In this document: piece by piece, positions 13,723 to 33,085 of the stretch
Numbering within the stretch: position 1 is the first letter of the stretch
How the letters are laid out: each line of letters opens with the position of its first letter
NCBI RefSeq assembly: GCF_014764445.1
Contig: NZ_CP061721.1
Span: 248,001-312,000, forward strand
DNA from: Pseudarthrobacter sp. BIM B-2242
Lineage (GTDB): Bacteria; Actinomycetota; Actinomycetes; Actinomycetales; Micrococcaceae
Reading direction: 5' to 3'
DNA: 64,000 nt
The notes under the pieces: generated by a model
The model's database searches: none
What the model saw: the letters and a program-made list of their open reading frames with translations, nothing else
Told to the model about the DNA's origin: nothing
Translations under genes and position numbers: made by a program

Positions 13723-13830
13723 ATGTTCCTCTCCTCAAAACATCAGGTCCAACCCTAGGCAGGGGCGCCCTTCTGCGGGAAATACCTATATCCGTTGCCG
13801 CGATAAGCGGATTGTGTGGCCGCCGGGGCC

Positions 13831-13940: not shown

Positions 13941-15149
13941 ATGTCTGAATTTGTACCTGCCTCGCGGGTGTCCCGCATCAAGTCTTCCGCCAGCGTGGCC
14001 GCAGCCGCCCGTGTGCGGGAGTTGAAAGCGGAAGGGCGCCGAATCCTCGACCTCACCGTCGGCGAGCCGGACTTCGACACCCCCGGGCACATCAAGGCGG
14101 CGGCCGTCGAGGCGATCAGCCGCGGCGAAACCAAGTACACCTCCGTCACCGGAACGCCGGCCCTCCAAACGGCCATCCTGCAGACCCTTGAACAGCGCAC
14201 CGGCCTGCACTACACCCCGGCCGAGATCACGATTGGCGGCGGGGCCAAACAGGTCATCTTCACGGCGTTTATGGCGTCCCTCGACGCCGGGGACGAGGTG
14301 ATCGTGCCCGCGCCCTACTGGGTCTCCTACCCGGACATGGTGCTGGCCAACGAAGGCACCCCCGTCGTTGTAGCCTGCGGCGAGGACACCGGATTCAAAC
14401 TCACACCGGAGGTCCTGGCCGGCGCCATTACCGGGCGCACCAAATGGGTCATCCTCAACGCGCCGTCCAACCCCACCGGGGCCGTCTACTCACGCGATGA
14501 GCTCCGGGCCCTTGCGGATGTTCTGGCTGCCTTCCCGCACGTCTACGTCCTTACCGACGAAATCTACGACCAGATCTACTTCGGCGCCGGCAAGCTGACC
14601 AGCCTGGTGGAGGTGGCCCCCGAACTGAAGGACCGCATCCTCGCCGTCAACGGTGTGTCCAAGGCCTACGCCATGACAGGCTGGCGGCTGGGGTACGCGG
14701 CCGGGCCGGCCCCGGTGATTGCCGCCATCAACAAACTGCAGTCCCAGATCTCCTCGTGCCCCTCCTCAGTGAGCCAGGCCGCCGCCGTCGCCGCCCTGAC
14801 CGGGGACCAGTCCTTTGTCCGCGAGAGCCTGGATGTGTACCGCACCAGGCGGGACACCGCTGTCGCCGCACTGAACGCCGTCGACGGTTTGTCATGCACG
14901 ACGCCGGAAGGCGCCTTCTACGCCTACGTCAACTGTGCGGGCGTCATCGGCAGGACGGCTCCGGATGGAACTGTCATCGGCGACGACCAGGACTTCACCC
15001 TCTACCTGCTGGATGCCGCCTCCGTAGCCGTAATCCAGGGCTCCGCCTATGGCCTGGGCCCGTACTTCCGCATCTCCTACGCCACCAGCCTGGATGTCAT
15101 CGAGGAGTCCATCGCTGCCATCGACAAGGCTGTCCGGGCCCTTAACTGA
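13941..15149 (+). CDS. PLP-dependent aminotransferase, class I/II (aspartate aminotransferase-like)
   Basis: The 402-residue enzyme belongs to fold-type I aminotransferases. The PLP-binding lysine is K241 in NGVSKAYAMTGWRLGY; other signatures are DLTVGEPDFDTP, NAPSNPTGAVYS, TDEIYDQIYF and the substrate-carboxylate arginine in YFRISYATS. It should move an amino group from an amino acid to a 2-oxo acid. A GGAAGAG ribosome site precedes the ATG. It is followed 25 bases later by an RraA/HMG-aldolase-like gene, so the two are one operon. That pairing suggests the 2-oxo acid product is cleaved to pyruvate. An ATA-N9-TAT site lies upstream. Confidence 0.92.
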   Translation: MSEFVPASRVSRIKSSASVAAAARVRELKAEGRRILDLTVGEPDFDTPGHIKAAAVEAISRGETKYTSVTGTPALQTAILQTLEQRTGLHYTPAEITIGGGAKQVIFTAFMASLDAGDEVIVPAPYWVSYPDMVLANEGTPVVVACGEDTGFKLTPEVLAGAITGRTKWVILNAPSNPTGAVYSRDELRALADVLAAFPHVYVLTDEIYDQIYFGAGKLTSLVEVAPELKDRILAVNGVSKAYAMTGWRLGYAAGPAPVIAAINKLQSQISSCPSSVSQAAAVAALTGDQSFVRESLDVYRTRRDTAVAALNAVDGLSCTTPEGAFYAYVNCAGVIGRTAPDGTVIGDDQDFTLYLLDAASVAVIQGSAYGLGPYFRISYATSLDVIEESIAAIDKAVRALN

Positions 15150-15174
15150 TCCAAACCCACCGAAGGAAAACACC

Positions 15175-15852
15175 GTGATCCACGTCAAAACCACCATCGA
15201 ACGCCCAAGCGCGGACGCCATCAGCCGGCTCGCGAAGTTCTCGTCAGCCACGATCCACGAGGCGCAGGGACGCAAGGGCGCCCTCAGCGCCCGCATCAAA
15301 CCCATCGACAGGTCCATGTCCTTCTGCGGCCCGGCCACCACAGTCCGGTGTGCGCCGCGTGACAACCTGATGCTGCAGGTGGCCATCCACTACGCCCAGC
15401 CGGGGGATGTCATCCTGGCCGCGGCGGGGGAGTACGAGGAGGCCGGAACCTTCGGCGACGTCCTCGGCAACGCCATGAAAGCGAAGGGACTGGCCGGCCT
15501 GGTGACGGACTCGGGGGTCCGCGACACCCAGGACCTCATCGAGCTGGGCCTGCCGGTCTTCTCAGGCAGTGTCTCCATCAAGGGCACGGTCAAGGAAACC
15601 ATCGGCCCGATCAACCACCCCGTGGTCTTCGGCGACGAGATCATCTACCCGGGCGACGTCCTCCGCGGCGACGCTGACGGTGTGGTGGTGGTCCGCAAGG
15701 ACGAGATCGAGGAAGTCATCCGCCTCTCGCAGGAACGGGACGACGCCGAGCGTGAGCTCATCAGCCTGTACAAGGCCGGCGGCACCACCATTGACCTGTG
15801 CAACCTGACCGACGTCCTGAAGGCCAAGGGACTGCTGGTCGAGCAGGCCTAG
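15175..15852 (+). CDS. RraA-like protein, probable HMG/CHA aldolase
   Basis: The 225-residue product has the RraA/demethylmenaquinone-methyltransferase-like fold, seen in GDVILAAAGEYEEAGTFGDVLGNAMKAKG, of which the GDV and GD.LG segments are typical, and in LAGLVTDSGVRDTQDL, where the Arg-Asp pair matches catalytic and metal-binding residues of 4-hydroxy-4-methyl-2-oxoglutarate aldolases. Such enzymes split HMG into two pyruvates. RraA proper inhibits RNase E and lacks this activity; the catabolic context favours the aldolase. The GTG at 15175 has a GAAGGAAAA ribosome site. It forms an operon with the aminotransferase. Confidence 0.82.
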   Translation: MIHVKTTIERPSADAISRLAKFSSATIHEAQGRKGALSARIKPIDRSMSFCGPATTVRCAPRDNLMLQVAIHYAQPGDVILAAAGEYEEAGTFGDVLGNAMKAKGLAGLVTDSGVRDTQDLIELGLPVFSGSVSIKGTVKETIGPINHPVVFGDEIIYPGDVLRGDADGVVVVRKDEIEEVIRLSQERDDAERELISLYKAGGTTIDLCNLTDVLKAKGLLVEQA

Positions 15853-15856
15853 TAAC

Positions 15857-15964
15857 ACTCGGCCTAGTGATACTCGGCCTGGGAGCACTACGGCTAGGAT
15901 CACCACGCCGAGAAGCAGTACGGCTAGAAGCACTACACCGAGAAGCACCACACCGAGTAGCACG
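15857..15964. repeat. Degenerate 15-bp tandem repeat
   Basis: About seven units of 15 bp (one of 18) run head to tail directly after the aldolase stop codon. Clear units are ACGCCGAGAAGCAGT (15905), ACGGCTAGAAGCACT (15920) and ACACCGAGAAGCACC (15935). On the minus strand one frame reads as hydrophobic pentapeptides of the VLLGV type, though no gene there is convincing. Confidence 0.8.
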
Positions 15965-15981
15965 GGTGCGGTAGAACGCTC

Positions 15982-16019
15982 GCAAAGCCGCCACAGGGTT
16001 TGTCCTGCGGCGGCTTTGC
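15982..16019 (+). terminator. Terminator after the aminotransferase/aldolase operon
   Basis: An 11-bp perfect stem (GCAAAGCCGCC at 15982-15992 with 16009-16019), extended by further pairs inside, lies after the 15-bp repeat array. It can serve both the plus-strand operon and, partly, the minus-strand HNH gene that ends at 16133. Confidence 0.8.
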
Positions 16020-16063
16020 TGCACTCACGGTGGCTTCGTTGGGGAGCCAAACCCAGTCGCGGC

Positions 16064-16143
16064 CATGATCAGCCGCGGGCATGATCGGCTGCGAGCGTGA
16101 TCAGGCGCGGGCGTGACCAGCTGCGGGCATGGTCAGCTGTGGG
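16064..16143. repeat. 16-bp tandem repeat reaching into the end of the HNH gene
   Basis: Five consecutive 16-bp units of the form CATGATCAGCCGCGGG start at 16064, 16080, 16096, 16112 and 16128, with a partial sixth. The last copies include the stop codon and the final residues (HAHS) of the DUF222/HNH protein, so copy-number change could alter its C-terminus. Confidence 0.82.
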
Positions 16144-17731
16144 CATGGAGGAGGCGTTCGAGGCCGTCTTCGCCGAGGGATATCCCGAGGTGGACGAAGT
16201 CCGGCGGGCCGCCCCGGGGTCCTTCCCGCCTTTTCGGGTGGCCTGGCTGTTTGAGTGGGCGTGGCCGGTCCTGTAGATCCGGATGTTCCTGCACGTCTGG
16301 ATGTTCCTCGTCTGGCTGTTTCAGTAAGTCTGGCCAGTGTGGTGGTTCCCAGTCCTGGTGTTCGCTTCGGTATCGTCGGCCGGAGGGTGAGATCCAGCCG
16401 GGTGGTTCGTTTTGGGTGGCCGGGGTGGGGGTCCAGGGTGTGGTGTGTCGGAGTTTGTGGTGGGCCGGGCAGGCCTGGCCGAGGTTGCTGATGCCGGTGG
16501 TCCCGCCTTGGGCCCAGGCGAGGAGGTGGTCCGCTTCGTTGTCCAGGGACTGGTTGTTACAGCCCGGGAAGGAGCACTTGCCGTCGCGCAGCCGCAGCCA
16601 GTTCCGCATGGCTTTGGTGAGCCGGTAACTTGTCCGGCCGATTTCCAGCGGCGCCCCGTCCCGCGGATCGATCAGGACCCGGTAGAACGAGCCGGCCCCG
16701 TTCGCCACGAGGTCCCGGGCCATCGAGGCCGGGATCGGGCCGTAGCCGTCCAGCATCGCCGGTTCCTCGGTGACGCCGAGCAGGGAAAACACCGGGACCG
16801 TCACCAGGACCTGGGCCCGCGGCGGCGGGACCTGCCCCGGACCGGATCCTTCGTGGTCTCCGTTGCTGAGTTGGTCTCCGCCGCTGAGCTGGTTTCCGTG
16901 GTTGAGGAGGGCGGTGGCGAAGGCGTCGGCGCGGAGTTGGGTGAGGGTGCGGTCCTCGTCCGGGCCCTGCAGGCCGCGGGCGATCGCGGTGGTCCGGTTC
17001 CAGATGGCTGCGGCCTGGTCTGCGGGGAGGTAGGCGGTGAGCCAGGCCATGCCGTCCTGGTCCGGGCAGTATTCCACCCGCCGGTCCAGGAGGCCTTTGG
17101 CGTGGCGTTTCTCGAGGCTTTCGGTGTGGTGGCGTTCGCGCCAGGTCCGGGCCCGGTGCCGGAACCGGGACGCTGGCATTTCCCCGGCGGGACAGCCGCT
17201 GGCCGCGCCTGGCGCGTCCGGGTCCAGGAAGTGGGCTTCCAGTGCGGCGGCGCCGGCGGGGTCGAGGGTGGCGGCTTCGTCCGCCATGACCCGGGCGTGC
17301 TGCCACGAAATGGACCCGGATTGCAGGGCGGCCAACGTCAGCGGCAGAGCAGTGGTCAGGGCGTGGGACACGGCGAGGAACGAACCGGCCGCCCGGCCGC
17401 CAATGGTCAGGGCGCACGCGACCTCGGCGGTGACTGCCATCTCCCGGGCCTGTGGCGAAGCGTCCGGCGAGGCCGCCGCGTCTGCGGCCGCGACAAATGT
17501 CGCGGCCGCAAGGGCTTTCAGCCCGGCCAGTTGCGCGTCCGCTTCCGCGGCCCCGGTCAGGATATCCAGGCAATCCCCGGATAATTCCTGCAACGGATCG
17601 ACCCCTGGAGAAAGTCCACCAGGGCCGGATTCGCCCGCCTCACCGGTGAGCACGCCGTTGACGACTCCGGTGAGCACTGCAACGGCAGCGGTGATCTCCG
17701 CGTACGCCTTCGCCACCACCGGATTCCTCAT
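16133..17731 (-). CDS. DUF222 and HNH endonuclease domain protein (13E12-repeat type)
   Basis: The 532-residue product has an Ala-rich N-terminal DUF222 region and a C-terminal HNH nuclease motif: two cysteines in CSFPGCNNQSLDNEADH, a central asparagine in TGISNLGQACPAHHKLRH, and the downstream histidines. Such proteins occur in many copies in Arthrobacter and mycobacteria; their role is unsettled and has been linked to mobile DNA. A TTG at 17764 could add 11 residues, but the ATG at 17731 is a better start. The C-terminal tail after the HNH motif is low complexity (HPDVQEHPDLQDRPR) and repetitive. Repeat arrays lie on both sides of the gene. Confidence 0.87.
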   Translation of the reverse strand: MRNPVVAKAYAEITAAVAVLTGVVNGVLTGEAGESGPGGLSPGVDPLQELSGDCLDILTGAAEADAQLAGLKALAAATFVAAADAAASPDASPQAREMAVTAEVACALTIGGRAAGSFLAVSHALTTALPLTLAALQSGSISWQHARVMADEAATLDPAGAAALEAHFLDPDAPGAASGCPAGEMPASRFRHRARTWRERHHTESLEKRHAKGLLDRRVEYCPDQDGMAWLTAYLPADQAAAIWNRTTAIARGLQGPDEDRTLTQLRADAFATALLNHGNQLSGGDQLSNGDHEGSGPGQVPPPRAQVLVTVPVFSLLGVTEEPAMLDGYGPIPASMARDLVANGAGSFYRVLIDPRDGAPLEIGRTSYRLTKAMRNWLRLRDGKCSFPGCNNQSLDNEADHLLAWAQGGTTGISNLGQACPAHHKLRHTTPWTPTPATQNEPPGWISPSGRRYRSEHQDWEPPHWPDLLKQPDEEHPDVQEHPDLQDRPRPLKQPGHPKRREGPRGGPPDFVHLGISLGEDGLERLLHAHS

Positions 17732-18044
17732 AGACCCATCATGACAAGGGGGTCTGACATTCAACCGAAACAGCCGCGGGCGCGGACAGCGGACGGACGG
17801 ACGGTACTTTCCGGCGTCGTCCGGAACCCTCGCGTGACGGTCCTTCCCGCGTCGTCCGGAACCCTCGCGTGACGGTCCTTCCCGCGTCGTCCGTCACCCT
17901 CGCGTGAAGTCCATCGGGTCACGGCCTAACCGGGTGCCCATCAACTGCAGGGTGCCGGTCCGGCCGGGTATCCCGCCGCCCTCGCCGTCGCAAACTCCCT
18001 TTGCCAGCCAGCTGCTGAGACAAGGCGCGGGCAACCGCAACTCC
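17732..18044. other. 313-bp gene-free stretch with repeat array
   Basis: This stretch upstream of the HNH gene contains the 35-bp direct repeats at 17814-17912. The rest (17913-18044) is GC-rich sequence with only short open frames that lack ribosome sites. I see nothing else in it. Confidence 0.5.
17814..17912. repeat. 35-bp direct tandem repeat, about 2.8 copies
   Basis: Two identical 35-bp units (17814-17848 and 17849-17883) are followed by a diverged partial third (17884-17912). Each starts GCGTCGTCCGGAACCCTCGC. A weak partial copy precedes the first. It lies in the intergenic region upstream of the HNH gene. Confidence 0.85.
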
Positions 18045-18275
18045 CTATTGCGTCGGGAGCAGATGGGTCGGGGGACCAAAGACTGCGTCCTCCAAAAGCC
18101 AGATGGCTGACCCGCCCCTGGCTGCCGGCATGATGCTGCCTTCGAAGACAAAGATGGGGCCCGTTGATCCGTCCTCCGGGCGCCAAAAGCCATTTGCGGG
18201 GCAGTGGAAACCGGTTTTGGCCATAAGGCCCAAGCCTTTACCGGAGACTCTCCGGAGGGTACTGATTTTTTTCAC
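18045..18275 (-). CDS. Small hypothetical protein with CP-x-GFW motif
   Basis: The frame encodes 76 residues from a GTG with a GGAG ribosome site seven bases upstream (a later ATG at 18224 would give 60). The core GFHCPANGFWRPEDG and VFEGSIMPAARGG looks like a real folded domain and not shadow translation: it resembles a group of small actinobacterial and proteobacterial proteins with a Cys-Pro, Gly-x-Trp and GS-x-MP pattern whose function I do not know. It follows lysR on the same strand after 129 bp, with an ATA-N9-TAT site (18383-18397) between. Whether it is expressed is uncertain. Confidence 0.5.
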   Translation of the reverse strand: MKKISTLRRVSGKGLGLMAKTGFHCPANGFWRPEDGSTGPIFVFEGSIMPAARGGSAIWLLEDAVFGPPTHLLPTQ

Positions 18276-18382
18276 GGCTCGCTCCAATTAATCCTTCAAA
18301 ATGTAACCGCCGTAATTTACCGGCTGTGCACAATTTTAGGATCCGGGGAGTTTCCTTACTAAGACTAATGATGCGTGACCCA

Positions 18383-18397
18383 ATAAGCGGATGATAT
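18383..18397. promoter_or_regulatory. ATA-N9-TAT site between lysR and the small ORF
   Basis: ATAAGCGGATGATAT fits the Nac-type consensus. It lies a few bases beyond the lysR stop, upstream of the small minus-strand gene at 18045-18275. The AT-rich stretch 18290-18375 around it is consistent with a promoter. Confidence 0.4.
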
Positions 18398-18404
18398 GGA
18401 AGGG

Positions 18405-19325
18405 CTAGCGCGCGTATTTGTTGGTGAGCATTTCCTGGAGCATTTCCTTCAGTACCAGGAGAACCGCCGAGGCAGCTTCGGAAAGCGGGTCATGGTCAGG
18501 TGTGCACAGTGCAATCTTGCACTGCAGTGCCGGATCCACAATCCGAAGCACCTGGAAGTCCTCCTCGTGGAACAAGGCGTCCGCCGCTGATTTGGGCATG
18601 ATGGTGGCTCCGAGATCGGCCCGGAGCAGCCTGGCGAGCGAGGGCACGGATTCCACTTCGCCCACAAGCTTGACCTTGAGTTCCTTGCTGGTGAAGCCGG
18701 CCTCCACTGTCTGCCTCAAGGTATGGATCTGCTCAGGCAGGAACAGCCCGTGCTGTGCCACCTCCTCCAACGGGATTTCGCCGTCAGCGTGGTTCAAACC
18801 AGCCCTGTTGGCGTTGACCACAAAGTGCAGGTCCTCCACGATCATGGTGGTGAACTGGACGCCGCGGATGGCTCCCGGCTCGTAGATCAGCGCCATGTCC
18901 AGCCGGCCGTTCTTGATGGCCTCACTGAGCACACCGCCGTAAATCTCCGTGACATGCAGGGTGATGTCGGGGTACCTGCTGGCCACCTCGCTGATGATCC
19001 TGGGCGTCAGGCTCGAGGCCATGCTGTACGGCGCAATGGCAATGGACACCCGGCCGGAGGGTGCCGCCCCGGACTTGGCGACGTCCAACCGTGCCTGGTC
19101 TACCAGACGGAGGATCGACTGGGCGTGCCGGTACAGCGTGTGCCCGGCCGCGGTGGGCTTTACACCCTGTTTGCTGCGGATCAGCAGCCGTTGCTTCAGT
19201 TCCGTTTCAAGGGCCGACACCTGCTGGCTCAGGGCCGGCTGGGCCACGTGCAGCGCTGCTGCGGCCTTGGTGATGCTGCCCGAATCCACAATCTGCACAA
19301 AGTACGCAAGCTTGCGCGTATCCAC
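18405..19325 (-). CDS. LysR-type regulator, Nac-like
   Basis: The 306-residue product has the N-terminal winged HTH of LysR regulators (KLAYFVQIVDSGSITKAAAA and LHVAQPALSQQVSALE) and a C-terminal periplasmic-binding-like effector domain. The HTH resembles that of the nitrogen assimilation control protein Nac more than that of CatR-type regulators. The frame extends upstream to 19427, but the GTG at 19325 has an AGAGGG ribosome site and gives the family start (VDTRKLAYF). It diverges from the ABC importer at 19638. An ATA-N9-TAT box lies 43 bp upstream, fitting autoregulation. The effector is not known. Confidence 0.92.
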   Translation of the reverse strand: MDTRKLAYFVQIVDSGSITKAAAALHVAQPALSQQVSALETELKQRLLIRSKQGVKPTAAGHTLYRHAQSILRLVDQARLDVAKSGAAPSGRVSIAIAPYSMASSLTPRIISEVASRYPDITLHVTEIYGGVLSEAIKNGRLDMALIYEPGAIRGVQFTTMIVEDLHFVVNANRAGLNHADGEIPLEEVAQHGLFLPEQIHTLRQTVEAGFTSKELKVKLVGEVESVPSLARLLRADLGATIMPKSAADALFHEEDFQVLRIVDPALQCKIALCTPDHDPLSEAASAVLLVLKEMLQEMLTNKYAR

Positions 19326-19363
19326 TGCCGCCCTCTTTCTCCGCGACGTCCTGAACCCAGAAA

Positions 19364-19415
19364 GGTCATAACCGGATGCTATGGAGGGATACGCAAATGG
19401 TCTTTGTGTGATCCA
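19364..19415. promoter_or_regulatory. Shared two-part regulatory element, copy 1 (lysR/ABC divergent region)
   Basis: GGTCATAACCGG (19364-19375) contains the start of an ATA-N9-TAT box (19368-19382), and a second block GTCTTTGTGTGATCCA lies at 19400-19415. Both blocks recur, with the same 36-bp offset, at 23775-23826 upstream of pxpA. It sits just upstream of lysR and about 220 bp upstream of the ABC importer. Confidence 0.72.
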
Positions 19416-19637
19416 CATCTCTGACACTAGGTTGAACCCAGAACGCTATTTCACTAGCAGTACATTCTACCCCCGCCAGACATGCATTTTTACGATGACG
19501 TAAGACGCATATTGCATAAATGTGCCTTTTACCGGAATAGACGTTTTCTTTTACATTTCCGAAATATTCAGTCCATAGCTTCAGAGCATCCAGGATCCGC
19601 CATCACAGTCCGGATCTTCTTGAGAAAGAGATAGCAA
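19416..19637. other. AT-rich leader of the ABC importer
   Basis: With the lysR upstream region this makes a 312-bp gap (19326-19637). It is clearly more AT-rich than its surroundings, particularly 19480-19570. TTGCAT at 19512-19517 with an AT-rich stretch about 17 bp later could be a promoter, but the match is poor. No strong hairpin is seen. Confidence 0.4.
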
Positions 19638-20720
19638 ATGCGAGTAACCATCAAAGGCAAAATGGCGGCCGTGGCCGCGCTCTCCGCAGCGGCCCTGGTC
19701 CTCTCGGGCTGCGGGGGTGGCACCGAGGCGGCCAGCACCGGCAGCGCCACTTCCGGCGAAGTTAACCTGATTGCGTATTCCGGTGTGTGGCAGGACCAGT
19801 ACACCGCCGCCGTCATTGAGCCGTTCAAGGCGAAGTACCCGGACATCACAATCAATTACTCCTCCAAGCGCTCCTCCGCCGAAATGCTCAGCGCCCTGCA
19901 GGGCCAGAAGAACAACCCGGCCACCGACGTCGCCATTATGGACAACTCCGTTTCCACAACGGGCAACAAGCAGGGACTCTTCGAAAAGATTGATGCCGAC
20001 GGCGTCCCGAATCTTGCCAACGTTGCCGAGAAGTTCCAGGACAAGGACGGGTACGGCCCGGTGGCCATGCTCGACGCCGTTGGCCTGGTCTACGACACTG
20101 CAACCTTCCCCGAGGCCCCCGACAGCTGGGAAGTCCTGTGGGACCCTGCGTACGCGGGCAAGATCAACGTGAACGCCCCGCCGTCGTTGCTGGGCCTGTC
20201 CCTGACCGCCATCACGTCCAAGATGGAGGGCGAGGACTACACCCAGGGCATTGACTCCGCAGTGGAACGCCTGAAGGAGATGGCACCGGGCGTGCAGACC
20301 TTCGCACCCAACCCGGACGAATACCAGAACGTGATCACCGGACAGACGGTGCTGGGCCTCGGCCAGAACGCCCGCGGCCAGTTCTACAGTGACCAGAGCA
20401 ACAAGAAGATGGGCGTTACCTTCCCCAAGGAAGGCACTGTCTACCAGATCAACACCGTCAACCTGGTGAAGGATGCCCCACACTCCGCTGCGGCCAAGAC
20501 GTTCATCGACTACGCGCTCTCCGCCGAGGCGCAGACGGCATTCGCCAAGGCACTCTTCTACGCACCCTCCGTTACGAACGCCGAACTGCCCGCCGACATC
20601 AAGGACCGCGTGGTACCCACGGACGGCTCCCTGAACATCGTCCCCCTGGACGTCGATTTCCTGTCCTCGGCCCGCGACAAGTGGACCGAAACCTGGAAGC
20701 GCCAGATCATCACCAAGTAG
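19638..20720 (+). CDS. ABC transporter substrate-binding lipoprotein, spermidine/putrescine-type
   Basis: The product (360 residues) starts with a lipoprotein signal peptide; the lipobox is LVLSGC with Cys25. The mature part is a family 1-like extracellular solute-binding protein (EVNLIAYSGVWQDQYTAAVI and later VGLVYDTATF). Such proteins capture polyamines, thiamine, iron or small organic acids outside the cell; the ligand cannot be read from the sequence. A GAGAAAGAG ribosome site precedes the ATG. It heads a four-gene operon with an ATPase and two permeases, and diverges from the Nac-like lysR. Confidence 0.9.
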   Translation: MRVTIKGKMAAVAALSAAALVLSGCGGGTEAASTGSATSGEVNLIAYSGVWQDQYTAAVIEPFKAKYPDITINYSSKRSSAEMLSALQGQKNNPATDVAIMDNSVSTTGNKQGLFEKIDADGVPNLANVAEKFQDKDGYGPVAMLDAVGLVYDTATFPEAPDSWEVLWDPAYAGKINVNAPPSLLGLSLTAITSKMEGEDYTQGIDSAVERLKEMAPGVQTFAPNPDEYQNVITGQTVLGLGQNARGQFYSDQSNKKMGVTFPKEGTVYQINTVNLVKDAPHSAAAKTFIDYALSAEAQTAFAKALFYAPSVTNAELPADIKDRVVPTDGSLNIVPLDVDFLSSARDKWTETWKRQIITK

Positions 20721-20768
20721 CGCCCGCCGCTGCCCCTCCCCAAACTTCCCTTCAGGAGAACTGAACCC

Positions 20769-21896
20769 GTGACTGAATCAAAACTGTCGATCGTAGATCT
20801 GACCAAACGATACGCAGCAGGTCTGGAACCCGCCGTCGACCGCCTGAACATGGAAGTGGAGGAGGGGCACCTGGTGGCGCTTCTCGGCCCGTCCGGCTGC
20901 GGCAAGACCACTACCCTCCGCATGGTTGCCGGCCTGATGGATCCCACCGCCGGATCCATCGTGGTGGACGGCAAGGAAATCACGCACACCCCGGTCAACA
21001 AGCGGGGAATGGGCATGGTCTTCCAGTCCTACGCCCTGTTCCCGCACATGAACGTGGAGCAGAACGTGGGATTCGGCCTGGAAATGCGCCAAGTCCCCAA
21101 GAATGAGCAGAAGGCACGCGTTGCGGCGGCCCTGGATATGGTCCAGCTTGGTCACCTTGGCAAGCGGCAGACCAAGGAACTCTCCGGCGGCCAGCAGCAG
21201 CGCATCGCCCTGGCCCGTGCCCTGGTGGTGGAGCCCACGCTCCTCCTGCTGGACGAACCGCTCTCCAACCTGGATGCCAAACTCCGCGAAACCATGCGAA
21301 CCGAAATCCGGTCCATCCAGCAACGCACCAGGGCAACCACCCTCTTCGTCACCCACGACCAGGACGAGGCCCTGGACATGGCGGACCGGATCGCTGTTAT
21401 GAACGGCGGCCTGATCGAACAGTTCGGGTCCCCCACCGATGTGTACGAACGCCCGCGCACGCATTTCGTGGCCAACTTCATCGGGCAGGCCAACTTCCTC
21501 ACCGCCCGCGTGGGTCCCGAAACCGGACGGGCCGGCCTGGCCGGCGAAAGCTACTACGCGGTGGACGTCGAGGGCCTGGGCCAGTTTGGTGCCGTCGGAT
21601 CCGCCGGTCTGACCGGCAGCACCCATGAGTTGGTCATCCGCCCCCACCGGCTGAACGTCGCCCTGCACCCGGGGGCTGCACAGGCACCCCTCGCCGGGAC
21701 CATCGAGCGGGTCAGCTACACCGGTGATGCCCTGGCCGTGTCCGTCCGCGTCGGGGACCAGCACCTCCAGGCACAAATGCTCACCAGCAGCGGGGACCTG
21801 CCCCGCATCGGCGACGCCGCCTACCTTTCCTGGGCTCCCGAAGATGCCTACCTCCTGCCCACCCCGGTGGCCGCGCAAAGGCTGGTTGCGGCATGA
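20769..21896 (+). CDS. ABC transporter ATPase, PotA-like
   Basis: The 375-residue protein energises the importer. Walker A (GPSGCGKTT), the signature [15 protein letters not shown], Walker B (LLLLDEPLSNLD) and the switch histidine (FVTHDQDEAL) are all present in the first 240 residues. The C-terminal part is a TOBE/MOP-like domain (ELVIRPHRLNV) usual in polyamine and iron importers. It starts with GTG after a CAGGAG ribosome site. The last four bases overlap the next gene (ATGA), which indicates coupling. Confidence 0.93.
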   Translation: MTESKLSIVDLTKRYAAGLEPAVDRLNMEVEEGHLVALLGPSGCGKTTTLRMVAGLMDPTAGSIVVDGKEITHTPVNKRGMGMVFQSYALFPHMNVEQNVGFGLEMRQVPKNEQKARVAAALDMVQLGHLGKRQTKELSGGQQQRIALARALVVEPTLLLLDEPLSNLDAKLRETMRTEIRSIQQRTRATTLFVTHDQDEALDMADRIAVMNGGLIEQFGSPTDVYERPRTHFVANFIGQANFLTARVGPETGRAGLAGESYYAVDVEGLGQFGAVGSAGLTGSTHELVIRPHRLNVALHPGAAQAPLAGTIERVSYTGDALAVSVRVGDQHLQAQMLTSSGDLPRIGDAAYLSWAPEDAYLLPTPVAAQRLVAA

Positions 21897-22813
21897 CCCT
21901 CCTGCAAGCCGCCGCAGCCCCTGAAAAGCCCCGGGGCCAGGACGAGGGGCAGCTGGAGAAAGCCACCGAACGGCGCAACCGCCGCACCTACCTTGCCCTC
22001 CTGCTGCCAGGCCTCCTTGGCCTGGTGGTCAGCTTCGTCTTCCCTCTGGCCTACATGGTCCGGATGTCTTTCAACCAGGGCGCCCCGGACGGGGTCATCG
22101 TTGAGACGTTCACACTGGACACCTACATCCAGCCGTTGACGGACCCGTACTACTGGAAAGTCACGCTTGACACCTTCCAGATGGGCGTGACCGTGGGCAT
22201 CCTCTGCGTCATCGTGTCCTACCCCGTGGCCCTGTTCCTGGCCCGCAGCACCAGCAAATGGCGTGGCCTGCTTATCGCCATTGCCATCGCGCCGCTGCTC
22301 ACCTCCGCCGTGGTCCGCACCTACGGCTGGATGGTCATCCTGGGAACCAACGGCCTGATCAACTCCTCCCTGGACGGGCTGGGCCTGATCGACACACCAC
22401 TGAAGCTCACCAACAACATGACCGGTGTGACAATCGGCCTGGTGGAGATCTTTATGCCCTACGCCATCCTGGCCATGATCTCCGGGTTCGGCCGGCTCAG
22501 CCCCCAGCTCGAGGAGGCTGCCGGATCCTTGGGAGCTTCCAAGTTCAAAGTGTTCACCAAGATCACCCTCCCGCTGTGCCTCCCGGGCCTGCTGACGGCG
22601 TTCCTGCTGGTCTTCGTGCTCTCCATCAGCACCTTCATCACGCCGCGGCTCCTGGGCGGCGGCAGTGTTCAGGTCCTCGCCACCGAGATCTATGACCAGA
22701 CCACCGGCCTGCTCAACTGGCCCTTCGCTGCCGCCCTGTCCGTCATCCTGCTGGTGCTCTTCGGCCTGATCATCGCCGTCTACCAGCGCCTCACCAAGAA
22801 GATCGGAGGCTGA
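21893..22813 (+). CDS. ABC transporter permease, PotB-like
   Basis: This 306-residue inner-membrane subunit has six predicted transmembrane segments, beginning around residue 35 (LALLLPGLLGLVVSFVFPLA). The cytoplasmic EAA loop that contacts the ATPase is visible as EEAAGSLGASKFKVFTKITL. The order PotB-like then PotC-like permease is normal for spermidine/putrescine-type importers. The ATG overlaps the ATPase stop by four bases. Confidence 0.92.
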   Translation: MTLLQAAAAPEKPRGQDEGQLEKATERRNRRTYLALLLPGLLGLVVSFVFPLAYMVRMSFNQGAPDGVIVETFTLDTYIQPLTDPYYWKVTLDTFQMGVTVGILCVIVSYPVALFLARSTSKWRGLLIAIAIAPLLTSAVVRTYGWMVILGTNGLINSSLDGLGLIDTPLKLTNNMTGVTIGLVEIFMPYAILAMISGFGRLSPQLEEAAGSLGASKFKVFTKITLPLCLPGLLTAFLLVFVLSISTFITPRLLGGGSVQVLATEIYDQTTGLLNWPFAAALSVILLVLFGLIIAVYQRLTKKIGG

Positions 22814-22815
22814 CC

Positions 22816-23631
22816 GTGAGCGACGTCAAGGTATTCAAGCCGCGCTTCAACCCTGCCAAGCCTGCGTTCGGGCTGCTGGTGTTCCTGCTGTACCTGTTCC
22901 TGCTGGCACCCCTGCTGATCGTGTTCGTGGTGTCCTTCGCCTCCAACCAGTACCTGTCCTTCCCGCCCGAAGGGTTCACTCTGAAGTGGTACGAGATGCT
23001 TCCGGAGGAAAGCACGTTTATGGAGGGCATGAAGGTCAGCCTGATCGTGGCCGTGATTGTCACGCTCATTGTGCTCGCTCTGGGCGTGCCTGCTGCGCTG
23101 GCCTTGGACCGTTTTGAGTTCAAGGCGAAGGCGGCTGTCCAGTCTTTTTTCCTCTCGCCGCTGCTGATTCCCAGCATCGTCCTGGCCCTGGGCATGGTCC
23201 TGCTGTTCGGGCCGCTGGAGCTGAACAACACCTATGCCGGCATCATCATCGGCCACGTGGCCATCACCATCCCGTTTGTCATCCGGACCACGCTGATGAG
23301 CCTGGCCACCACGGACACGTCCTGTGAGGCGGCGGCCCGCATCCTGGGGGCCGGCTCCTGGACGGTGTTCCGGCGGGTGACCCTGCCCATCATCCAGCCG
23401 GGTGTGATTGCCGGCGGCGTCATAGCCTTCATCGTTTCCTTCGACGAAGCGGTGATCTCCCTGTTCGTGGCCGAATCGGGCCTGCCCACCCTGCCCGTGC
23501 AGGTGCTGCGGTATGTCGAAAACTCCGCCGATGCCGCCGTCGCGGCCCTGTCCGTCATCCTGATTCTGATCTCGCTGGCTGTGGTGGTAGTCGTCGAACG
23601 CGTCATGGGGCTCCGCAAGGCCCTCCGCTAG
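22816..23631 (+). CDS. ABC transporter permease, PotC-like
   Basis: The second permease (271 residues) has about six membrane segments and its own EAA loop (CEAAARILGAGSWTVFRRV). The GTG start lies two bases after the previous stop, with a GGAGG ribosome site in the end of that gene. It is the last gene of the importer operon; a strong hairpin at 23711-23740 follows. Confidence 0.92.
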   Translation: MSDVKVFKPRFNPAKPAFGLLVFLLYLFLLAPLLIVFVVSFASNQYLSFPPEGFTLKWYEMLPEESTFMEGMKVSLIVAVIVTLIVLALGVPAALALDRFEFKAKAAVQSFFLSPLLIPSIVLALGMVLLFGPLELNNTYAGIIIGHVAITIPFVIRTTLMSLATTDTSCEAAARILGAGSWTVFRRVTLPIIQPGVIAGGVIAFIVSFDEAVISLFVAESGLPTLPVQVLRYVENSADAAVAALSVILILISLAVVVVVERVMGLRKALR

Positions 23632-23710
23632 GGCAGCGGGCGGCCCTCCAACCGGGCCGACCTGCCCTGCCCAGCAAGCCAATAACGCAACACCCAACAA
23701 CCGAACAGCC

Positions 23711-23740
23711 CTGCCCGGTCCGCACCAGCGGACCGGGCAG
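23711..23740 (+). terminator. Terminator after the ABC importer operon
   Basis: A perfect 13-bp GC-rich stem (CTGCCCGGTCCGC at 23711-23723 with 23728-23740) closes a 4-nt loop, about 80 bp after the last permease. It separates the importer from the pxp genes, which have their own upstream element. The 340-bp gap from 23632 to 23971 holds this hairpin and that element. Confidence 0.8.
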
Positions 23741-23774
23741 AACGCCGTCCGGGTCATGCTCCGGAAGAGGTGCG

Positions 23775-23826
23775 GGTCATAACCGGCACCTATCCCGTGA
23801 CACCGATTACGTCTTTGTGTGATCCA
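23775..23826. promoter_or_regulatory. Shared two-part regulatory element, copy 2 (upstream of pxpA)
   Basis: GGTCATAACCGG (23775-23786), an ATA-N9-TAT box (23779-23793) and GTCTTTGTGTGATCCA (23811-23826) repeat the arrangement found at 19364-19415, with the same 36-bp offset between blocks. Sequence between the blocks is not conserved, which points to selected protein-binding sites. Confidence 0.72.
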
Positions 23827-23971
23827 AATCCCGGTGTCAGACTTTTTCTACAAGCCCGGTAATCCGGGCCACGGGACCCAAGCTCCATCAGGCCGGTCCA
23901 CCCACTTCCGCTTCCGGCAGCTGCCGCTGTGCATGGCCAGCGCCGTGCCAACACCCCCAAGGAGGGCTCAC

Positions 23972-24760
23972 ATGGGACCCATGGTTGATCTCGTAGCAGA
24001 TCTCGGAGAAGGCTTCGGCGCCTACTCGATGGGCGACGACGCGGCCCTGCTCGACGTGGTCTCCAGCGCCAACATCGCCTGCGGCTTCCATGCCGGCGAC
24101 CCGGACATCATGAACGCCACCGTCGCCGAATGCGTGCGCCGCGGCGTGGCCATCGGCGCGCACCCCAGCTTCCCTGACCTCCGCGGCTTCGGCCGCCGCG
24201 CCATGGACCTCACAGCAGATGAAGTCCGCCACGACGTCCTGTACCAGTTCGGGGCGCTGAGCGCTTTCGCTGCCTACCATGGCGCCGGCGTCGTCCACCT
24301 CGCACCCCACGGCCGCCTGGGCAACCTCGTGGCCACCCGCCCCGACTACGCGGAGGCCGTGGCTGACGCCGCCGCCCGCATCAATCCGGATCTGATTGTC
24401 CTGGCCCAGGACGGCGAACTCGCTGACGCTGCCACAGCCCGCCGGCTCCCCGTGGGCATCGTGGGAATCGCAGACCGGGCCTACGAAGCAGACGGGACCC
24501 TGGTGCCGCGCAGCCGGCCCGGCGCCGTGATCCACGATCCCAAAACCATCGTGGCCCGAACCATCCGCATGGTCTGCGAAGGCGTCATCGAGACCGTCGC
24601 CGGAACCGACCTGCCGATCGTTGCAGACACCATCCTGCTCCACGGTGACACCCCGGGCGCCGTCCAGCTGGCACGTCAGGTCCGCGCTGAACTGGAACGC
24701 GCCGGCGTGACCATTGCCCCGCTCGCCCGGGTGCTCGCCGCCAAAGTGAAAGCCGCCTGA
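23972..24760 (+). CDS. pxpA: 5-oxoprolinase subunit PxpA (LamB/YcsF family)
   Basis: PxpA works with PxpB and PxpC to open 5-oxoproline to glutamate using ATP. The family start VDLVADLGEGFGAYSMGDD and the motifs NIACGFHAGDP and GAHPSFPDLRGFGRR are clear. The usual VKPHGALYN segment reads LAPHGRLGNL here, so this belongs to a diverged subgroup and its lactam may differ. The ATG at 23972 has a perfect AAGGAGGG ribosome site; the frame is open further upstream but has no support. With pxpB (1-bp gap) and pxpC it forms an operon behind the shared regulatory element. Confidence 0.9.
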   Translation: MGPMVDLVADLGEGFGAYSMGDDAALLDVVSSANIACGFHAGDPDIMNATVAECVRRGVAIGAHPSFPDLRGFGRRAMDLTADEVRHDVLYQFGALSAFAAYHGAGVVHLAPHGRLGNLVATRPDYAEAVADAAARINPDLIVLAQDGELADAATARRLPVGIVGIADRAYEADGTLVPRSRPGAVIHDPKTIVARTIRMVCEGVIETVAGTDLPIVADTILLHGDTPGAVQLARQVRAELERAGVTIAPLARVLAAKVKAA

Positions 24761-24761
24761 C

Positions 24762-25493
24762 ATGACCGCCACGCCAACTCCAGCACTGCCTCCGGTGGAG
24801 GTGTTTGAATCCGGCGACGCCGCACTGCGCGTCGTCGCGTCCTCTCCGGACCGGGAGGCCAACTGGGCCACCGTCCACGCCCTTGCGGAGTGGCTGGACG
24901 CTGCGGGTGCCGACGGCGTCCACGGCGCAGTGCCCACCTACGACTCGCTGCTGGTGGAATTTGATCCCGGCGTCACGTCCGCGCGGCAGGTCAGGGCCTT
25001 TGTCCTCCTGGGCCTGCGCCAGCTCGAATTCACCGGCGCCCCCGCCCGCACGCCCCGGGAATTCAGCGTTCCCGTGGTGTACGGCGGCGAGTACGGTCCC
25101 GACCTGGAGCGCGTTGCCGGGCAGCAGCAGCTCTCGGTCGAGCAGATCATCGAGCTTCACACCACCAAGTCCTACGTGATCCGCTGCCTCGGCGCTCCGG
25201 CCGGCTCGCCCATGATGGACGGTCCCGATTTTCCCTTCCCCGTGCCGCGGCTGAAGGACCCCCGGCTGTCCGTCCCGGCAGGCGCCGTGTCGGTGGCCGG
25301 CCGGCAGGCGGTCATCGCCCCCGCCGTGGCACCGGGTGGCTGGTGTGTGATCGGACAGACTCCGCTGACCGTTCTTGACGCCATGGCTGAGCCGCTGGTT
25401 CCCTACGTCCCCGGCGACACCCTCCGGTTCCACCGGATCCAGCCCGAAGAGTTCGCCCAGTATGCAGGCCGGAAAATGGAGGCGGCGCAATGA
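24762..25493 (+). CDS. pxpB: 5-oxoprolinase subunit PxpB (KipI/allophanate hydrolase subunit 1 family)
   Basis: This 243-residue protein has the carboxyltransferase C/D-type domain of KipI/PxpB, recognised from VHGAVPTYDSLLVEFDP, the YGGEYGPDLE strand and CVIGQTPLTV. In B. subtilis the homologue KipI was described as a kinase inhibitor, but the conserved pxpABC operon supports the 5-oxoprolinase role. The ATG begins one base after pxpA, and the stop overlaps the pxpC start by four bases. Confidence 0.9.
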   Translation: MTATPTPALPPVEVFESGDAALRVVASSPDREANWATVHALAEWLDAAGADGVHGAVPTYDSLLVEFDPGVTSARQVRAFVLLGLRQLEFTGAPARTPREFSVPVVYGGEYGPDLERVAGQQQLSVEQIIELHTTKSYVIRCLGAPAGSPMMDGPDFPFPVPRLKDPRLSVPAGAVSVAGRQAVIAPAVAPGGWCVIGQTPLTVLDAMAEPLVPYVPGDTLRFHRIQPEEFAQYAGRKMEAAQ

Positions 25494-26497
25494 GCCTGAT
25501 CATCCAGCAGCCGGGCAACACCGTGGTCACGGACCTGGGACGCTTCCGCGGCCCCCGGTTCGGACTCCCTGTCAACGGTGCGCTGGACCAGTTCTCTGCC
25601 CGGGCCGCCAACATCCTGGCCGGAAACGCTGACAAAGCTCCATTGATGGAGGCCACCGCACTGGACTTCCGCATGCGGGCCACCACGGACATCCTCATCG
25701 CCGTCACCGGCGCACCCTTGCACCTCACGGTGGGCGGGCGCGAGTGCCAGCAGTGGGAGCCGGTGTCCGTACGGGCGGGGGAGACCGTAGCGCTGCGAAG
25801 GATCGACGGCGGCCTCCGCGCCTACGTCGCTGTCCACGGCTCGGTTGAGGCACCGGTCCTCCTGGGCAGCTGCGCGCCGGACACCGTCGTCGGCTTCGGG
25901 CTGCGGCTGACGGAAGGGACCGAACTGAAGACCTTCCGCGCTATCCCGCCGATCCGCCAGCCGTACTTCGATCTCCCGCTGTTCCGCCTGGGCCTCATCC
26001 GGCCGGAATTCAGCAGCACTGCGGTGGTGGACGTGACGGACGGCCCGGATGTGGACGAGTTCGGCGACACCGCGGACCTGCTCTACAGCACCGAATACAC
26101 GGTCAGCGGCCGGAGCAACCATATCGGCCTGCGGCTGGGCGGAGCACTCCCGGAACGCCAGTCCACAGCCGAGGTGTTGTCCCGGGGCGTCCCCGTGGGA
26201 GCCATCGAGGTACCGTCCCGCGAAGAACTCCTGGTGCTGCACCGCGGACGTGGGGTCACCGCCGGCTACCCCGTCCTCGCCGTTGTCACCAGCCGCTCGC
26301 TGGACGTCCTGGCCCAGGCGCGGCCAGGCCACAAGATCCGGTTCAGAAGAACCACCGTCACCGAAGCAACAGCGAAACACCGGGCAGCGATCAGGGAACT
26401 GGAAACACTGCGTTCCACTGTCGGCACAGTGTTCTCGCTCCTGGGCATCGGCGACCAGCCGGGCTGGCACCAGCTCGCGCCGGCCGCCGGAGGCTAA
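25490..26497 (+). CDS. pxpC: 5-oxoprolinase subunit PxpC (KipA/allophanate hydrolase subunit 2 family)
   Basis: The 335-residue protein has the carboxyltransferase A/B-type domain: IIQQPGNTVVTDLGRFR at the start, then GLPVNGALDQFSARAAN, and NHIGLRLGG near the C-terminus. It completes the PxpABC complex. The start overlaps pxpB by four bases. The last codons and stop are followed by an almost exact 21-bp duplication of themselves, so the gene appears to have had a recent small tandem duplication at its end. Confidence 0.9.
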   Translation: MSLIIQQPGNTVVTDLGRFRGPRFGLPVNGALDQFSARAANILAGNADKAPLMEATALDFRMRATTDILIAVTGAPLHLTVGGRECQQWEPVSVRAGETVALRRIDGGLRAYVAVHGSVEAPVLLGSCAPDTVVGFGLRLTEGTELKTFRAIPPIRQPYFDLPLFRLGLIRPEFSSTAVVDVTDGPDVDEFGDTADLLYSTEYTVSGRSNHIGLRLGGALPERQSTAEVLSRGVPVGAIEVPSREELLVLHRGRGVTAGYPVLAVVTSRSLDVLAQARPGHKIRFRRTTVTEATAKHRAAIRELETLRSTVGTVFSLLGIGDQPGWHQLAPAAGG

Positions 26498-26519
26498 ACG
26501 CCGGCCGCCGGAAGCTAAA
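26478..26519. repeat. 21-bp tandem duplication over the pxpC stop codon
   Basis: Two adjacent 21-bp copies (26478-26498 and 26499-26519), starting CGCCGGCCGCCGGA, differ at one base. The first includes the pxpC stop TAA, so the second duplicates the end of the gene into the intergenic space. Confidence 0.8.
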
Positions 26520-26573
26520 AGCCCTCGCTTCATCCACAAAGCATTGTTACCATCCCCATAAGTAAGGAACGCC

Positions 26574-27914
26574 ATGTCCACCTCTACGCACGCGGCCCAG
26601 CCGCACCAAGAGCGGCTCAGCAGCAAGCAGACCCGCAAGGTCGTCACGGCCGGCTGCGTCGGCATCTTCGTGGAACTCTATGACAACGGCATCTTCGCCT
26701 TTATGGCTGGAACACTCGCCCTCGTCTTCCTGGCTCCCGGCAACCCGGACAACGCCCTGCTGTTCGTCTTCGCCGGCTACGCTGTGTCCTTCTTCGTGCG
26801 CCCCCTTGGCGCTGTGGTCTGCGGTTACCTGGGGGACCGGATCGGGCGGCAAAAGCTGCTGGTCTTTGTCATCCTGCTGATCAGCGTTGCGACGGCGGGC
26901 ATCGGCTTACTTCCGGCCTACTCGGCCATCGGCATCGCCGCACCGGTCCTCCTGGTGCTGCTCCGCATGCTCCAAGGCTTCTCCGTTGGCGGCGAAGCCG
27001 CCGGCGCCATGACCTTCCTCGCCGAGCACGCCCCTGAAGGCAAGCGCGGCATCATCACCTCCTACGCCCAGATCGCCTCGTTCGCAGCCCTGCTCACCGG
27101 TACGCTGGTCGCGTTCTCCATGTCGCCCTGGCTCACGCAGGCAGCGATCGACGGCGGCGGCTTCGGTTCGTTCGCATGGCGCATTCCGTTCCTGGTTGCC
27201 ATCCCCATGGGCGTCATTGGTTGGTACATCCGAAAGGCGATCAGCGACACCCCCAACTTCGAGAAGCTGAAGGAAGAGGGCGGGCTGTCCAATAACCCGC
27301 TGAAGGAAGCCTTCGCTTCACCTGAGCACCGCCGTGCCATGCTGTTGGCCCTGTTCATCCCGCTGATGAACGGCTCCGGCTATTACGTCCTGTTCTCCTA
27401 CATGCCCACGTTCCTCAAGGGCAAACAGCTGAACTTCACCATCGGCGAAGCACTCCTCGTGACCGCCTGCAGCCTGGTGGTCATCTGCATCGCGATTCCG
27501 TTCATGGGCGCCCTGTCGGACCGCATCGGCCGCAAGAAAGTCATCGCCGGCTCGGCCATCGCCATGGCCGTCATCGGCATACCCGCCTACGCCCTGATCG
27601 CCACGGGCGAGATGGCATTGGCCATCCTGGGAGCCTGCCTTATGGCTGTGGTCTTCGCCGGCCACACCGCCGTGATCCACATCCTGATCGTCGAACTGTT
27701 CCCCACCCGGGTCCGCTACTCCGCCTACGGCCTGGGCTATAACATCTCTTCGGCACTCTTCGGCGGCACGGCGCCGCTGCTGCTGACCTGGCTGATCTCC
27801 ATCACCGGCAACATCTACATGCCCGCCTTCTACGCCGTCATCACGGCGCTGGGCACCCTCGCGGCCGTCAGCACTGTCAAGGACCGGGCACACCTGCCGC
27901 TCCGCGACGCCTAA
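26574..27914 (+). CDS. MFS transporter, metabolite:H+ symporter family
   Basis: The 446-residue protein has the twelve-segment major facilitator pattern. The loop 2-3 motif is GYLGDRIGRQKLL and its repeat in the second half is GALSDRIGRKKVI. LRMLQGFSVGGEAAGAM is typical of the metabolite:H+ symporter group (ProP, ShiA, KgtP), which import organic acids or zwitterions. The substrate is not identifiable. An AAGGAA ribosome site precedes the ATG. It follows pxpC by 76 bp and precedes the dehydrogenase genes, so it may serve either group. Confidence 0.9.
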   Translation: MSTSTHAAQPHQERLSSKQTRKVVTAGCVGIFVELYDNGIFAFMAGTLALVFLAPGNPDNALLFVFAGYAVSFFVRPLGAVVCGYLGDRIGRQKLLVFVILLISVATAGIGLLPAYSAIGIAAPVLLVLLRMLQGFSVGGEAAGAMTFLAEHAPEGKRGIITSYAQIASFAALLTGTLVAFSMSPWLTQAAIDGGGFGSFAWRIPFLVAIPMGVIGWYIRKAISDTPNFEKLKEEGGLSNNPLKEAFASPEHRRAMLLALFIPLMNGSGYYVLFSYMPTFLKGKQLNFTIGEALLVTACSLVVICIAIPFMGALSDRIGRKKVIAGSAIAMAVIGIPAYALIATGEMALAILGACLMAVVFAGHTAVIHILIVELFPTRVRYSAYGLGYNISSALFGGTAPLLLTWLISITGNIYMPAFYAVITALGTLAAVSTVKDRAHLPLRDA

Positions 27915-27964
27915 TCTTCCACTTCATCAAGCAGCACTGGGCTGCACCCTCAGAGGAGATCTTC

Positions 27965-28714: not shown

Positions 28715-28757
28715 ACGGCCCGCACCCACCTACCACCGATTGAAACAGGTTTACCCG

Positions 28758-33003: not shown

Positions 33004-33085
33004 GGGTTCCACCCTAACCGCCGGGCCTGACATTGCTCTCCCGGTCCGGCGAAGCGACGTACTGGCGGTCAATTAAACACCTCTG

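Follow-up and report, generated by a model that had tools for sequence, protein, structure and literature searches.

Which compound is broken down by the enzymes encoded around a PxpABC-like lactamase in the soil bacterium Pseudarthrobacter sp. BIM B-2242? The question is raised by a stretch of 64,000 nucleotides (G000:C1:248001-312000, G000 being the genome under study), which is called the window below; positions are counted from its first letter, and genes lie on the forward strand unless stated otherwise. A first-pass annotation had noticed an importer, PxpABC, an aminotransferase (AT) and an RraA-like aldolase, and had proposed that they act in series on 4-hydroxy-4-methyl-pyroglutamate or a similar plant-derived compound. 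All of these genes are indeed open frames that match the families named. The conserved cluster proved larger than the stretch originally described and extends from 13941 to 31584. We lean towards the view that it encodes an inducible route for breaking down a substituted lactam, or the matching amino acid, by the steps proposed. The series of lactam opening, transamination and aldolase cleavage is backed by co-occurrence of the genes within the genus and across phyla, and by replacement of individual steps by unrelated proteins.

Co-occurrence within the genus and across phyla

Co-occurrence in other genomes had been put forward as a check on the proposal, and the genes do co-occur. In 60 other genomes of the same genus, orthologs of AT (13941..15149) were recognized by at least 74% identity, the next matches reaching 43% at most. 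AT is present in 33 of the 60 genomes, as is the short-chain dehydrogenase (SDR) termed SDR1 (27965..28714). Comparison by hand yielded 32 genomes with both, and in each of these the two genes share a contig and lie at most about 12.3 kb apart. AT occurs without SDR1 in genome G005, and SDR1 without AT in G011. When 196 genomes of the genus were considered, orthologs of RraA (15175..15852, GTG start read by eye) were found in 98 and those of PxpB (24762..25493, at least 67% identity) in the same 98, while SDR1 occurred in 97, 96 of them within this set. The solute-binding protein of the importer (at least 75% identity; 25 of 198 genomes) was encountered exclusively in RraA-positive genomes. 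Orthologs of the D-2-hydroxyacid dehydrogenase HADH (28758..29702; at least 68% identity, anywhere in the genome) were present in 65 of 196 genomes, 60 with and five without RraA. Twenty loci were fetched whole from the 33 AT-bearing genomes, and all 20 contain AT, RraA, the NAC-type regulator, PxpA, PxpB, PxpC and SDR1. The MHS symporter is encoded in 17 of them, HADH and the IdnO-like and IdnD-like dehydrogenases in 15, and gluconokinase in nine.

Beyond the genus, a scan anchored on AT covered the best 80 of at least 589 relatives, with identity thresholds set by ourselves. PxpA accompanies AT in 20 of these 80 loci, four of which belong to Arthrobacter or Pseudarthrobacter. The 20 PxpA-positive loci hold PxpB and PxpC without exception, SDR1 and NAC in 16 cases each, AccC in 12, RraA in 11, HADH in nine, IdnD and IdnO in eight each and GntK in five; several contigs are short, so that absences are soft. 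Among the 60 PxpA-negative loci, PxpB, PxpC, AccC, HADH, IdnO and GntK do not occur at all, IdnD occurs once, RraA twice, SDR1 three times and NAC five times. Actinomycetota and alpha-, beta- and gammaproteobacteria all provide examples of the gene set; Rhizobium, Sinorhizobium and Agrobacterium account for many of the plasmid records in which relatives occur. In the proteobacterial plasmid forms, genes for a biotin carboxylase and biotin/lipoyl proteins accompany those for PxpABC, AT and SDR, often together with a NAC gene and a polar amino-acid importer; the record of an A. vitis plasmid lists no biotin carboxylase in its form of the cluster. Fungi use 2-pyrrolidinone by means of LamA/LamB with a biotin carboxylase, to which the AccB/AccC-bearing clusters of proteobacteria may be analogous. 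The gene for RraA is contiguous with those for HADH, IdnD, an IdnO-like SDR and gluconokinase in Shinella and Roseateles, and with those for SDR, gluconokinase and HADH in Sinorhizobium numidicum.

Replacement of steps by unrelated enzymes

Plasmid pRL12 of Rhizobium johnstonii carries, in one run, importer genes and the genes for AT (65% identical to the window AT), NAC, HyuA, HyuB, SDR and an HpcH/HpaI aldolase. The HyuAB/HpcH-HpaI run recurs on plasmids of Agrobacterium fabrum Kin001 and R. etli CIAT 652. In A. larrymoorei it extends into SDR, gluconokinase, HADH and IdnD, and on plasmid pTiAF3.44 of this organism (L183 5731-16840) HyuAB, the HpaI-type aldolase, an IdnO-like SDR, gluconokinase, HADH and IdnD are all encoded in the same direction. 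Pantoea sp. SOD02 has the order RraA2, MFS, HyuA, HyuB, SDR, AT. In these cluster versions of Rhizobium, Agrobacterium and Pantoea, members of the caprolactamase/hydantoinase HyuAB family take the position of the lactamase. They belong to PF01968/PF02538, in contrast to PF03746/PF02682/PF02626 for PxpABC, and remain far under the caprolactamase cut-offs (529.7 and 219.9 versus 1000). HyuA matches of at least 70% were found in five of the 60 PxpA-negative, AT-anchored loci (L059-L062 and L072), and four of these five also hold the HpcH/HpaI aldolase and the SDR of this run. Since weaker HyuA matches (about 40%) occur in the PxpA-positive loci L064 and L156, and HpaI matches of 27-28% in L057 and L058, presence of the families alone is no proof.

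A second PxpB (34-39% identity) was detected in 27 of 196 same-genus genomes, and in 12 of these 27 an HADH ortholog lies at most about 10.3 kb from it. Seven of the 27 were fetched (L171-L175, L179 and L180), six of them picked because of the HADH gene nearby. All seven second clusters show the same order, RraA2-MHS2-PxpA2-PxpB2-PxpC2-SDR-AT2, with members about 30-50% identical to their window counterparts. The two aminotransferases are about 32% identical, HADH subfamilies of different clusters share 29% identity, and the aldolases of the window and of L181 gave no BLAST match with each other. Overall, the aminotransferases fall into at least three lineages and the SDRs into at least two. 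A fixed set of functions filled by unrelated proteins is stronger evidence for the reaction series than linkage alone.

AT, a class I/II aminotransferase, scores 702.1 with NCBIfam NF004769 (the 'aspartate transaminase' family PRK06107; cut-off 617) and falls into a clade rich in such clusters. At E values up to 1e-150, the model detected two of 296 genomes of the phylum, one being that of the window itself, and AT is therefore rare in Actinomycetota as sampled. In a quick midpoint-rooted tree of 116 ATs, 46 of 56 cluster ATs fall into one half. The other half contains a 47-row group without cluster sequences and a separate nine-row group of cluster ATs, mostly rhizobial, which points to recruitment of AT on more than one occasion.

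Lactamase, aldolase, dehydrogenases and regulation

PxpA (23972..24760, start codon inferred), PxpB and PxpC (25490..26497) represent PF03746, PF02682 and PF02626 side by side. The same subunit families form PxpABC 5-oxoprolinase, for example that encoded by C. glutamicum pxpTABC (PMC13274462, in excerpt), and an ATP-dependent lactam opening is likewise expected here. The window cluster differs by the absence of the NRAMP-like PxpT and the GntR-type PxpR, by the additional aminotransferase, aldolase, SDR and NAC-type regulator, and by the altered PxpA motif. Window PxpA exceeds the cut-off of its subfamily model NF003814 (322.7 versus 226); PxpB scores 118.7 with TIGR00370 (cut-off 145.55) and PxpC 136.4 with NF045499 (cut-off 500). 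Because these two cut-offs are missed and the canonical PxpA motif is absent, we do not file the system as plain 5-oxoprolinase.

That motif is VKPHGALYN, which we infer to be the defining mark of the family; window PxpA reads LAPHGRLGN and lacks both Lys and Tyr. The first-pass annotation had read the diverged motif (LAPHGRLGNL) as fitting an altered lactam. Gly replaces Tyr in 56 of 60 PxpA rows, each of the 56 coming from a locus with an AT gene, and is thus a trait of the family; Lys is lost in 55 of these 56 rows and retained in L152. VKPHGALYN itself occurs in four rows (L150, L151, L153 and L159), with the reservation that the rows stem from loci picked by AT, SDR1, PxpA or RraA matches and under-sample canonical PxpA. 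The two PxpA2 proteins read (HVAPHGRMGS) carry the same two changes. Owing to the loss of Lys and Tyr, the lactam opened by window PxpA is probably other than plain 5-oxoproline. The second PxpA of the genome, a solitary canonical protein (G000:C1:366511-367224; L159 5511-6260), keeps VKPHGALYN and has no PxpBC match adjoining it. Cluster PxpB is the sole PxpB-family (CT_C_D) match found in the genome, and the two PxpA proteins may therefore share PxpBC. In Bradyrhizobium sp. 62B (L156 14620-19167), two differing PxpBC pairs stand beside a single PxpA, one with biotin carboxylase genes, the other adjoining an ABC importer and an aminotransferase. Mutations in a pxpABC operon of P. protegens Pf-5 (PFL_1513-1515) lowered root attachment in a screen, according to the excerpt of PMC13390462.

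Window RraA is 42% identical to the HMG/CHA aldolase of P. putida F1 (PMC5065237; PDB 3NOJ), HMG being 4-hydroxy-4-methyl-2-oxoglutarate; it differs from that enzyme by Gln at position H75 and by residing outside a gallate/protocatechuate cluster. It passes NCBIfam NF006731 (216.7, cut-off 179) and remains below the LigK model TIGR02798 (195, cut-off 304.5). Eleven catalytic sites were checked in an alignment of 58 RraA-family rows. Ten are identical between window RraA and 3NOJ (R40, N71, D102, R123, D124, G144, T145, K147, R195 and E199), the exception being H75. We presume that D102, D124 and E199 have roles in the P. putida enzyme. The same pattern is found in 44 of the 58 rows (43 loci and the window), every one of them with Gln at position 75, while the 14 remaining rows are more distant, with at least two of the eleven sites changed. 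The excerpt of PMC5065237 assigns Arg-123, Asn-71 and Lys-147 a part in the activity of the P. putida enzyme and credits its H75A variant with near-normal HMG cleavage. Given that this variant still cleaves HMG well, we regard H75Q as a mark of the subfamily and not as proof of a new acceptor. In the same excerpt, cleavage yields pyruvate and a 2-oxo acid, with a side chain R that depends on the substrate. A role in the protocatechuate pathway was set aside, as the genome encodes a separate lig-linked RraA (C1:56249), which has His at position 75 and Glu at position 102 and shares 53% identity with 3NOJ. A LigA match (C1:54809) lies about 1.2 kb from this copy, whereas window RraA is about 207 kb away. 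In Burkholderia pyrrocinia (L149 15459-18251), a phosphoenolpyruvate carboxylase gene lies within the cluster and adjoins an RraA-family gene.

Downstream of the symporter gene (MHS/MFS metabolite-H+ type, 26574..27914), SDR1 and HADH are followed by an IdnO-like SDR of the gluconate 5-dehydrogenase family (29699..30469) and an IdnD-like zinc dehydrogenase of the L-idonate/sorbitol dehydrogenase family (30469..31584). The L-idonate/5-keto-D-gluconate pathway consists of IdnD, IdnO and GntK. The adjacency of IdnD-like and IdnO-like genes resembles this pathway; the window differs from it in that the genes are joined to lactamase, aminotransferase and aldolase genes and that no gluconokinase gene was noticed among the listed frames adjoining the IdnD-like gene. 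Gluconokinase matches were found at two places elsewhere in the genome. The IdnD-like protein scores 226.9 with its best model, equivalog PRK09880 (cut-off 469), and the IdnO-like protein 294.2 with its second-best, equivalog PRK08085 (cut-off 408); their PDB neighbours are sorbitol or L-idonate dehydrogenase and gluconate dehydrogenase, respectively. The best PDB hit of HADH is a phenylpyruvate reductase, and glyoxylate/hydroxypyruvate reductases and a probable 2-ketogluconate reductase are also listed. The nearest model for SDR1 is the 3-hydroxy-acid dehydrogenase YdfG (168, cut-off 411). In genome G011 (L178 10496-14288), where 18 kb were read, the run SDR1-HADH-IdnO-IdnD-GntK is accompanied by neither AT nor RraA nor PxpABC, which suggests that SDR1 may belong with the sugar-acid genes.

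The ABC importer, composed of a binding protein (19638..20720), an ATPase (20769..21896) and two permeases (21893..22813 and 22816..23631), is optional and present in seven of the 20 fetched same-genus loci. Polyamine import is unsupported: the binding protein scores 49.6 with the PotD equivalog (cut-off 582), and its best solved relative is 4edp, followed more weakly by PotD (1pot) and an agropine permease protein (6hly). A polyamine-only binding protein had been named as a finding that would refute the pathway; it carries little weight, because the protein is facultative and so far from the PotD cut-off.

The LysR protein (18405..19325, reverse strand, start codon inferred) scores 307.8 with the NAC model NF008410 (cut-off 309) and probably controls the cluster genes. 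Three exact copies of the 15-mer ATAASCGGATNNTRT are candidate sites, located upstream of AT (13803..13817), just past the LysR stop codon (18383..18397) and in the LysR/importer intergenic region (19368..19382). Shuffled sequences gave a mean of 0, a value that overstates significance as the pattern was written after the sites had been seen. With up to one mismatch, ATAASCGGATNNTRT is matched in 13 of 29 related loci scanned and in none of the other 16. Two of the three sites, including that at 19368, show the form ATA-N9-TAT, which we take to be the NAC consensus. For another LysR regulator, this form is given in the excerpt of PMC12016517. The original description of the stretch needs correction on three points: the importer is optional, the conserved cluster continues to 31584, and a DUF222 gene (16133..17764, reverse strand) breaks up the stretch between RraA and LysR. 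The DUF222 gene is not counted in the pathway and, among the related loci compared, has a weak counterpart (23%) in L040 only; short direct repeats, seen by eye, flank its region (15850-15960 and 17780-17910). Beyond the cluster, the next long frame (31630-33072) lies on the opposite strand.

Candidate substrates and competing explanations

The reactions, their order, their regulation and the substrate are predictions drawn from the gene content, co-occurrence, conserved catalytic residues and non-orthologous replacement described above. Import through the ABC system or the MHS symporter would be followed by ATP-driven opening, by PxpABC, of a lactam other than plain 5-oxoproline. The aminotransferase would then form a 2-oxo acid, and the RraA-type aldolase would split a 4-hydroxy-2-oxo acid into pyruvate and a second carbonyl compound. 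Where present, HADH and the IdnD-like and IdnO-like proteins would take this second product to D-gluconate. SDR1 would contribute one redox step whose place in the series is not fixed. As genes of the HADH, L-idonate and gluconate-5 types often adjoin that for the aldolase, pyruvate and a 2-keto-aldonate are suggested as products rather than two pyruvates. These families are typical for conversion of 2-keto-hexonates to gluconate, and a polyhydroxyalkyl group as R would therefore make use of all genes. On these grounds we tentatively put forward, with little confidence, a hybrid in which glutamate (or its lactam) is joined to a hexonic acid by a C-C bond, a 4-hydroxy-4-(polyhydroxyalkyl)glutamate, as the substrate. 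The aldolase would release pyruvate and a 2-keto-aldonate such as 2-keto-L-gulonate, which HADH would reduce to L-idonate; IdnD would yield 5-keto-D-gluconate and IdnO D-gluconate, ready for gluconokinase. The run on pTiAF3.44 makes an opine-like compound possible. Amadori-type opines such as deoxyfructosyl-oxoproline were considered in view of the Ti plasmid cluster but are less favoured, as direct transamination is closed to an N-substituted amino acid and no deglycating gene was recognized in that cluster. A comparison in the excerpt of PMC8554961 connected the lactam of rideopine with a hydantoinase encoded on other Ti plasmids.

The substrate originally favoured, 4-hydroxy-4-methyl-pyroglutamate or the corresponding glutamate cleaved to two pyruvates, now appears very improbable. 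The retained HMG/CHA catalytic residues agree with it, as do lactamase and aminotransferase, which fit the chain; nothing specific supports it, and the HADH, IdnD-like and IdnO-like genes (15 of 20 fetched same-genus loci, hence facultative) would have no task if the cleavage gave two pyruvates. Gln75 in 44 of 58 RraA rows, unlike 3NOJ and the lig-linked paralog, also disagrees, weakly so given the active H75A variant. Searches of open-licence papers for 4-hydroxy-4-methylglutamate returned other topics only, and, in keeping with the first-pass annotation, no paper describing the gene set was found among those searched. If 4-hydroxyglutamate or its lactam were the substrate, pyruvate and glyoxylate would arise and HADH would reduce the latter. 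The glyoxylate/hydroxypyruvate reductases among the PDB neighbours of HADH are compatible with this, though the best hit is phenylpyruvate reductase, and we rate the idea as unlikely since it leaves the idonate/gluconate-type and gluconokinase genes, contiguous with aldolase and HADH, unexplained.

Somewhat less unlikely, yet still doubtful, is handling of aspartate and oxaloacetate, in which AT would form oxaloacetate, RraA would decarboxylate it and PxpABC would separately serve 5-oxoproline salvage. NCBIfam names AT an aspartate transaminase and RraA an aldolase/oxaloacetate decarboxylase, and the single PxpB match in the genome could also serve canonical PxpA; the altered PxpA motif, the SDR and the replacement by HyuAB and an HpaI-type aldolase are left unaccounted for. 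A nitrogen module and an idonate module might instead be independent neighbours, gathered because both serve plant-derived compounds, and we grant this a minor share of probability, as we do the hybrid substrate. HADH-IdnO-IdnD without PxpABC or RraA in L177, the L178 run mentioned above and plasmid pRmeGR4a of S. meliloti GR4, where RraA, HADH, IdnD and an IdnO-type SDR come with an importer of their own and neither PxpABC nor AT appears in the 28.7 kb read, all fit such independence, as does the incomplete match of HADH and RraA orthologs in the genus. Recurrence of the association in differing gene orders and with the divergent HADH subfamilies argues against it, as do HADH near the second PxpB and IdnO in eight of 20 PxpA-positive but none of 60 PxpA-negative loci.

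Several observations weigh against a single catabolic series as such. Nine of the 20 PxpA-positive loci, including three of Pseudomonas (L090, L099 and L118), lack a CHA-type RraA at 45% identity or more in the DNA available for them; some of the nine hold a relative at 27-35%, and a replacement aldolase for the Pseudomonas loci was not found among ten open reading frames scanned in related loci, which encode transporters or porins or have no assignment (three without family). An HADH ortholog is missing from 38 of 98 RraA-positive genomes and present in five RraA-negative ones, and the facultative sugar-acid genes may form an independent module. Genomes of one genus are related, so that their co-occurrence is not independent evidence and Fisher values overstate independence. 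The comparison of PxpA motifs rests on just four canonical rows, and cluster PxpA is not one clean clade, L150 and L152 grouping on long branches. One RraA-family protein is a dehydratase/decarboxylase, and the P. putida enzyme also decarboxylates oxaloacetate (PMC5065237, in excerpt), which speaks for the oxaloacetate alternative as well.

If catabolism of a substituted lactam is nevertheless the function, the spread over phyla and the many rhizobial and agrobacterial plasmid records make it plausible that the substrate is common around plants, and the hybrid compound, if real, would belong to a class of metabolites of plants or the rhizosphere that has so far gone unrecognised. PxpA proteins without Lys and Tyr of VKPHGALYN are annotated as 5-oxoprolinase subunits, yet their lactam is probably a different one. 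Species without gallate/protocatechuate clusters commonly carry copies of HMG/CHA aldolase, whose role there is given as unknown in the excerpt of PMC5065237; one such subfamily now gains a concrete, testable pathway context and, with H75Q, a sequence mark.

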